This document shows positions 53,851 to 55,328 of a stretch of 64,000 bases of DNA, one piece after another. Under the pieces are notes generated by a model that did no database searches, was not told the origin of the DNA, and was given only the letters and a program-made list of their open reading frames with translations. This DNA is from Mesorhizobium sp. SCN 65-20. GTDB lineage: Bacteria; Pseudomonadota; Alphaproteobacteria; Rhizobiales; Rhizobiaceae. Position 1 is the stretch's first letter. Each line of letters opens with the position of its first letter. The translations under genes and the position numbers were made by a program. Where the stretch lies: positions 62,001 to 126,000 of the forward strand of contig MEEF01000010.1 of NCBI GenBank assembly GCA_001724355.1. The letters are read 5' to 3'.

Positions 53851-54456
53851 ATGACGAAGCGCTCAATCGGTCATTTGCTCCTGGCGGGCATGATTTCGCT
53901 CTCGATCCATGCCGCCGGCCCGCCGGCCGCTCAGGCAGCTCCAATTACTAACCGCATAGATGTCTGCCACGGCTATGGCTGTGCATTCCGGGCAAGGCTC
54001 TATCTCGGCGCCGGCGATGCCCAGCGCTTCGCCTCGATCCTGGCCGCAGGCAAGTCCTCGGCGGAGGCCGAGCGTGCGGCGATCGGTCAAGCCGTCAGCT
54101 ATTTCGAGAAGCGGGTCCAGCAGGTGACGGGCGTGCGCGACGAACCGAAGTCGGAGTTCGGGGCGTCAAAGGTCAAGGGCCAGATGGACTGCGTCGACGA
54201 ATCGACCAACACCGACACCCTGTTGCGCTACCTGCAAGGGCGCGGCCTGCTGAAGTACCACAAGGTAGAGGCGAGGACCTCGCGCGGGTTCCTTTTCGAT
54301 GGACGCTACCCGCACTGGACCGCGGTGATACGCGCGCCGGACGGTGTCAAATGGGTGGTCGATTCCTGGTACGCGCCGATGGGCGGCTTACCGGACATCA
54401 TTCCGCTCAGCGACTGGAAGCCGCGCGGCCTGCTCTCCAGCGGCGCGCTGGATTAG
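53851..54456 (+). CDS. Secreted hypothetical protein, transglutaminase-like candidate
   Basis: Signal peptide [29 protein letters not shown]; ordered C (MDCVDES), H (PHWTAVI), D (VVDSWYAP). Confidence 0.65.
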
Positions 54457-54490
54457 CCCGGGTCACAATTTCTGGGAGCCGAATACAACA

Positions 54491-54603
54491 ACACCCGCCG
54501 GGGGAGGAGGTCCGGCGGGTGTCGTTTTGATGGTCAGCTCCAGGGAGGAGGAGAGAAGCTGACCTATTCGCCGTGAGCCAGGGAGGAGGAGGGCTCGGGC
54601 GAA
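54491..54603 (-). ncRNA. Anti-SD stem-loop triad 3 (hairpins 54567-54603, 54532-54564, 54491-54522)
   Basis: Minus-strand loops CTCCTCCTCCCT, TCTCTCCTCCTCCCTGG, ACCTCCTCCC on stems of 5-11 bp. Confidence 0.75.
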
Positions 54604-54619
54604 ATTCCTTTGGCTAACT

Positions 54620-54730
54620 GCACCCGCCGGGGGAGGAGATCCGGCGGGTGCGTTAAGGTGGTCGGCTTCGGGAGGAGGAGTAAGCCGACCTATTCGCCAT
54701 GAGCCGGGGAGGAGGAACGGCCCGGGCGAA
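54620..54730 (-). ncRNA. Anti-SD stem-loop triad 2 (hairpins 54693-54730, 54660-54690, 54620-54651)
   Basis: Minus-strand loops TTCCTCCTCCC, ACTCCTCCTCCCG, ATCTCCTCCC; stems GGTCGGCTT/AAGCCGACC and GCACCCGCCGG/CCGGCGGGTGC perfect. Confidence 0.78.
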
Positions 54731-54775
54731 ATTCTTTTCGCCTGTTGAAGAGGGCGAATCTCTTTCTGGGTAACG

Positions 54776-54877
54776 GCACCCGCCGGGGGAGGAGATCCGG
54801 CGGGTGCGTTAAGGTGGTCAGCTTCGGGAGGAGGAGTAAGCTGACCGATCCGCGGGGTCGGGGAGGAGGTCGACCCC
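54776..54877 (-). ncRNA. Anti-SD stem-loop triad 1 (hairpins 54854-54877, 54816-54846, 54776-54807)
   Basis: Minus-strand loops ACCTCCTCCC, ACTCCTCCTCCCG, ATCTCCTCCC; stems GGGGTCG/CGACCCC, GGTCAGCTT/AAGCTGACC, GCACCCGCCGG/CCGGCGGGTGC. Confidence 0.78.
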
Positions 54878-54890
54878 AGCGGAAACTGAA

Positions 54891-55031
54891 TTAGATGGCG
54901 CGGCGAGCGATCGCCGGGATTTCACCGCGGTTGATGCCGAGGTCGGCAAGCTGGCGGTTGGACAGGCGGCCCAGCTCATTCACCGTCTCGCGATAAGCGC
55001 GCCAGTTGCGGTAAGTGCGGAGCAAGTTCAT
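54891..55031 (-). CDS. DUF1127 small protein (46 aa), copy A
   Basis: Hand translation MNLLRTYRNWRAYRETVNELGRLSNRQLADLGINRGEIPAIARRAI*; AAAGAGAAAG upstream. Confidence 0.92.
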   Translation of the reverse strand: MNLLRTYRNWRAYRETVNELGRLSNRQLADLGINRGEIPAIARRAI

Positions 55032-55073
55032 TTTCTTTCTCTTTCGTTCGTACGGTTGTGTGAATGTCGACGC

Positions 55074-55214
55074 TTAGATGGCCTTACGCGCGACGAAGTG
55101 GATGTCGCTGCGGGTGATGCCCAGGTCGGTCAGTTCACGGTTGGACAGGCGGCTCAGCTCATTCACGGTCTCGCGATAGCGGCGCCAGTTGCGGTAGTTG
55201 CGGATCAGGTTCAT
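55074..55214 (-). CDS. DUF1127 small protein (46 aa), copy B
   Basis: Hand translation MNLIRNYRNWRRYRETVNELSRLSNRELTDLGITRSDIHFVARKAI*; about 33/46 identical to copy A. Confidence 0.92.
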   Translation of the reverse strand: MNLIRNYRNWRRYRETVNELSRLSNRELTDLGITRSDIHFVARKAI

Positions 55215-55259
55215 CTTCGTATCCCGTTCGTTTTCTTTTCGCTCTCTGTGTACGGGGCG

Positions 55260-55288
55260 TAGATAGGTCCGCTCTGACTAAAATTGAA
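55260..55288 (-). promoter_or_regulatory. Candidate promoter of the DUF1127-sRNA operon
   Basis: Minus strand TTCAAT-N17-TATCTA (-35 at 55283-55288, -10 at 55260-55265). Confidence 0.5.
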
Positions 55289-55290
55289 GC

Positions 55291-55328
55291 GCTATGCTCG
55301 CATAGCAGCAATGCGTTTTGTGCATTGC
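55291..55328. promoter_or_regulatory. Paired palindromes, candidate LysR-type regulator recognition and activation sites
   Basis: GCTATG-CTCG-CATAGC (55291-55306) and GCAATGC-GTTTTGT-GCATTGC (55308-55328), the latter containing TGCGTTTTGTGCA (T-N11-A). Confidence 0.5.

Follow-up and report, generated by a model that had tools for sequence, protein, structure and literature searches.

Two DUF1127 genes and an array of anti-SD hairpins

The window, i.e. the whole stretch of 64,000 nucleotides analysed here, belongs to an incomplete assembly (81% complete, 3.68 Mb). On its minus strand it carries two short DUF1127 genes, A and B, which are preceded by a conserved upstream region and followed by an array of nine hairpins (Table 1). 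The original prediction had read two arginine-rich DUF1127 proteins of 46 aa from this strand, and our translations are identical to the quoted ones. Both peptides match PF06568 in Pfam (gene A, 65.0 bits, E=4.9e-18; gene B, 62.9 bits, E=2.3e-17), approximately 40 bits above the Pfam cut-off of 23.3 bits for DUF1127, and a search of NCBIfam gave no family for either. The genes are plain ATG open reading frames, merely short, and are 72% identical to each other. Both genes are under purifying selection, with a pN/pS over 11 species of 0.118 (A) and 0.144 (B), which marks them as real and constrained; these values, together with the Pfam matches, rule out chance open reading frames. No GGAGG precedes the start codon of either gene, and one idea is that both might in this way be spared by their own sRNAs.

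The nine hairpins extend from 54883 to 54487, the first beginning 7 nt beyond the gene B stop codon. Each is stable and exposes a CTCCTCC loop (CCUCCUCCC-type). Nine anti-SD hairpins had been predicted to follow the gene pair; they are seen here, and Rfam assigns them to three complete sRNAs of the ar14 family (RF02344), with full-length matches at E=2e-17, 8.5e-16 and 3.4e-15 and a gathering score for the family of 58.8 bits. The ar14 stems covary, with compensatory changes in 16 of the 19 predicted pairs of a consensus that does not resolve the middle hairpin. The features by which ar14 is recognized, three hairpins with CCUCCUCCC-type loops on variable, covarying stems, are found here as nine hairpins in three units. 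The small hairpin between units 1 and 2 is possibly a spacer or a processing remnant.

Hairpin 9 has a 15-bp GC-rich stem followed by TTGTTGTATT and is probably the terminator of the array; its U-tract is imperfect, and a simple terminator scanner made no call. The same hairpin, at 54491-54522, also reads as a plus-strand terminator with the tail CGTTTTGATG. Read in that direction it would serve a convergent open reading frame of 201 aa (53851-54456), which has no Pfam match.

Table 1. Positions of genes, sRNA units and upstream elements in the window
Feature	Position	Strand	Remark
Putative regulator-binding dyad, inverted repeat GCAATGC-N7-GCATTGC	55308..55328	-	upstream of promoter
VtlR/LsrB-type box GCATTGCTGCTAT	55302..55314	-	100 nt before first start codon; overlaps dyad
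Putative core promoter CTTCAA-N17-CTATCT	55261..55289	-	conserved in genus; CTTTAA/TTATCT in sister genus
DUF1127 gene A, 46 aa	55074..55214	-	clusters with relatives' single-copy DUF1127 gene
DUF1127 gene B, 46 aa	54891..55031	-	duplicated, diverged copy
ar14 sRNA unit 1, hairpins 1-3, CCUCCUCCC-type loops	54771..54887	-	RF02344, 90.8 bits
Small hairpin TTCGCC..GGCGAA	54737..54758	-	between units 1 and 2; without anti-SD loop
ar14 sRNA unit 2, hairpins 4-6	54615..54734	-	RF02344, 93.5 bits
ar14 sRNA unit 3, hairpins 7-9	54486..54607	-	RF02344, 100.9 bits

Linkage of genes and array, and age of the gene pair

The ar14 family and the DUF1127 peptide were searched separately in 61 related genomes and the coordinates were then compared. 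All 35 homologues scoring at least 60 bits are followed on their strand by an ar14 match at most 700 nt away. The link is present for 12 of the 24 homologues at 50-60 bits and for 7 of the 34 below 50 bits, and no opposite-strand homologue lies within 1 kb of any ar14 match in these genomes. Because it is weaker for the distant DUF1127 proteins, the linkage holds for this DUF1127 subfamily and not for DUF1127 in general. A second set comprised the 80 named loci nearest to the query, with a DUF1127 alignment as query; an anti-SD hairpin comes shortly after the DUF1127 gene in 79 of these. Both sets are drawn from related species, and their counts are not independent trials. The pattern is the same in Aminobacter, Mesorhizobium, Phyllobacterium, Ochrobactrum-type Brucella, Aurantimonas, Aureimonas and others.

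There is good support for the original prediction of a single unit made up of the gene pair and the hairpin array, as the two are colinear and nearly adjacent, with conserved linkage. It had been stated that a missing linkage in relatives or a strong terminator between gene B and the array would speak against such a unit. The linkage is present in the strong homologues and in nearly all named loci, and a divide by a terminator is rejected, as a simple scan of the minus strand found none from gene B to hairpin 1. Six loci of relatives have alternating or multiple cassettes of DUF1127 genes (D) and hairpins (h), such as DhhDhhh, hhhDhhhD and DDhhDhDh; this suggests repeated cassette duplication.

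Genes A and B followed by 4-9 strictly scored hairpins are found in all ten Aminobacter genomes and in one further related genome (G024). Among the 80 named loci, the order A then B is also seen in most Mesorhizobium loci and in several relatives. A nucleotide tree places most A copies together with the genes that occur singly in other genera, and most B copies in separate groups; the tree is built on 138-nt genes (46 codons), its support is low and Mesorhizobium soli departs from the pattern. Since most copies of either type group with their own kind across genera, a recent local duplication is rejected, given the same low support and the same exception. Our reading is that a single old duplication occurred in the Mesorhizobium-Aminobacter lineage, in which case A would be ancestral in type and B a derived, diverged copy.

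The upstream region and a candidate regulator

Conservation is strong upstream of gene A, and the promoter evidence that this region holds was missed by the original prediction. Neither the window nor the 3.68-Mb genome has a second perfect match to the dyad, which is invariant in the genus (Aminobacter genomes) and nearly invariant in the sister genus; a search with 2 mismatches is by itself near chance. The putative core promoter fits RpoD or RpoH, and we take it to be compatible with an alphaproteobacterial RpoH promoter.

The box GCATTGCTGCTAT is a perfect match to the VtlR consensus GCAT-N3-TG-N3-T, which has only 7 fixed bases and is proposed for Brucella and Agrobacterium (PMC7486931). 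It agrees with the published Brucella 15-mer (CAATGCAGCCATGCA) at 11 of 15 positions. When up to 3 mismatches are allowed, the 15-mer has 3 matches in the window against 2.3 expected, which alone is not significant. It is position and conservation, and not the matches in the window alone, that make the case for a VtlR/LsrB-type box. Counted in either orientation and with genus replicates left out, a VtlR-type box lies at -140 to -70 in 25 of the 57 regions upstream of family DUF1127 genes, against a mean of 0.76 in dinucleotide shuffles; three other upstream intervals of the same regions gave 2, 3 and 0. A box is present at -145 to -70 in 65 of the 80 named loci. Six loci with DUF1127 genes of Ochrobactrum-type Brucella combine an upstream VtlR-type box with downstream anti-SD hairpins, an observation that bears on how the VtlR regulon is read.

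Elsewhere in the genome, an AsnC/Lrp gene, trxB and a LysR gene are found in a row. By synteny alone, the LysR gene directly after trxB is a candidate ortholog of VtlR/LsrB; the order trxB-vtlR is stated to be conserved in Alphaproteobacteria (PMC7486931). A search of NCBIfam gave no match to an LsrB-specific family model.

An orphan ar14 sRNA without a DUF1127 gene is located at C92:12439-12558 on the minus strand. It is conserved in the genus and is a likely NfeR1 ortholog. The orphan has 25 of the 31 bases of the upstream element of the operon (shuffle maximum 19) with the same spacing to the -10. This element stands directly before the orphan ar14, whereas the tandem array has no such element directly in front. 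A weak ar14-like element of three hairpins (C43:25326-25440, plus strand; 55.5 bits, below the cut-off) follows approximately 20 nt after a coding region ending KALKDLKAA, and looks like an anti-SD sRNA derived from a 3'-UTR.

In S. meliloti, LsrB is the indispensable activator of the ar14 sRNA NfeR1, which uses RpoD and LsrB (PMC10746234). Direct activation of short DUF1127 homologues by VtlR in Brucella and Agrobacterium is described in PMC7486931 and PMC12595884. Because of the conserved box, the syntenic trxB-lsrB and the orphan ar14 with the same element, we suggest that the likely activator here is LsrB/VtlR and not, as in Rhodobacter, the RpoH factors; on the simplest reading it would control the whole operon.

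A probable CIN1-type operon compared with known systems

From the genes and the selection on them, the hairpins, the linkage, the conservation of the box and the synteny of the regulator, all observed directly, we consider it highly probable that the region is a CIN1-type operon, in which a single LsrB/VtlR-activated transcript would encode two DUF1127 proteins and three ar14 units. Start site, co-transcription, activator, processing, targets and protein action are predicted as follows. The transcript would start near 55254 and run through A, B and three ar14 (CcsR/cuckoo/NfeR1-type) units to a terminator at hairpin 9. A LysR regulator of the LsrB/VtlR type at 55314-55302 would activate the weak-core promoter under stress or nutrient limitation. 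Processing of the RNase E type between the units would free three-hairpin sRNAs, the loops of which would pair with Shine-Dalgarno sequences of the form GGAGG and silence mRNAs, probably those for transporters and for nitrogen or carbon regulation. The DUF1127 proteins would act alongside, either in RNA maturation and turnover or by binding a sensor kinase. In NfeR1 the three loops are redundant on target mRNAs, and ntrB is among the genes silenced (PMC10746234).

The combination of a short DUF1127 gene and a CcsR-like sRNA is called a "CIN1 locus" in PMC10253847, citing Reinkensmeier and Giegerich 2015. The worked example is ccaF1 (RSP_6037)-CcsR1-4 of R. sphaeroides, which is co-transcribed and processed by RNase E into mRNA and sRNAs (PMC10253847), in agreement with the co-transcription that the original prediction had stated for Rhodobacter. 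Its central claim, an association of DUF1127 genes with sRNAs, is correct and already published. In both loci tandem sRNAs with anti-SD loops follow directly on a short DUF1127 gene of the same strand, and a hairpin terminator, here a probable one, stands at the end. They differ in that two diverged genes of 46 aa are found here and one gene of 71 aa there, in that three three-hairpin units (nine hairpins) stand against four CcsR sRNAs, and in the VtlR/LsrB-type box of the promoter here.

The ar14 family (RF02344; NfeR1, SmelA075; cuckoo RNA) is matched at full length three times with the same ultraconserved loop, and the orphan copy in the genome shares the upstream element of the operon. Descriptions of NfeR1 present a trans-acting sRNA that has its own promoter, whereas the units here are in tandem downstream of coding genes. 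The VtlR-activated genes BAB1_0914, BAB2_0512 and BAB2_0574 of Brucella and atu1667 of Agrobacterium likewise encode short DUF1127 proteins behind an upstream VtlR box. In the source passages, however, they are treated as small proteins (or a putative sRNA) alone, and those passages make no mention of downstream ar14 hairpins. What is added here is the old, conserved A/B duplication and the VtlR/LsrB-type box in the operon promoter. Neither the conserved tandem pair nor an LsrB/VtlR-type promoter of the combined operon is mentioned in the literature searched, a search that lay outside the founding CIN1 and CcaF1 papers.

Whether the DUF1127 proteins act on the array RNA is contested. CcaF1 of R. 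sphaeroides binds RNA and promotes maturation of CcsR RNAs by RNase E (PMC10253847), whereas no RNA binding was found for Salmonella YjiS, and the short DUF1127 proteins of Agrobacterium act through PhoR (PMC12501420). The proteins may work without touching the array RNA (PMC12501420). We regard it as a serious possibility, falling slightly short of an even chance, that they act only by protein-protein contact (e.g. with PhoR) and share an operon with the sRNAs for common control, with no joint mechanism. The binding of PhoR by the Agrobacterium proteins, a defect in which is complemented by CcaF1, and the lack of RNA binding by YjiS fit such a role (PMC12501420); the RNA binding of CcaF1 and its part in CcsR maturation argue against it, as does a subfamily linkage tighter than shared control alone would need.

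It is improbable, in our view, that the same operon is driven by RpoH-type sigma factors, as ccaF1-CcsR is in Rhodobacter, instead of LsrB/VtlR. The core hexamers do resemble RpoH promoters, and an RpoHI/RpoHII promoter is found at the R. sphaeroides operon (PMC10253847), but the box kept at a fixed upstream distance throughout the family, with the same element before the orphan ar14, points to a LysR activator, and NfeR1 uses RpoD plus LsrB (PMC10746234). Both kinds of control could be at work. That the array is a neighbouring unit, transcribed from a promoter within or just behind gene B and having no more than a loose tie to the DUF1127 genes, is very unlikely: ar14 can stand alone, as orphan units without DUF1127 elsewhere in the genome show, but the 7-nt gap leaves no room for an intergenic promoter, a single promoter region with strong conservation precedes gene A, the subfamily linkage is near-total, and the element directly in front of the orphan is missing in front of the array.

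The proposed CIN1-type operon under LsrB/VtlR control joins three literatures that, as searched, are mostly separate, i.e. those on CIN1 operons, on LsrB control of NfeR1 and on VtlR control of short DUF1127 proteins. If it is true, effects ascribed to the small proteins or to VtlR need to be re-tested in a way that separates them from those of the downstream sRNAs. The A/B pair, being conserved, offers a natural test of whether the DUF1127 domain binds RNA or protein. For the Hyphomicrobiales as a whole we offer a tentative proposal, which we hold possible though rather doubtful: redox-responsive LsrB/VtlR would drive a protein-plus-sRNA operon, of which the DUF1127 proteins of the VtlR regulon would in many species be the coding half and ar14 the other half, and in the Mesorhizobium-Aminobacter lineage A and B may have split into different roles, e.g. 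one on the array RNA and one on a sensor kinase.
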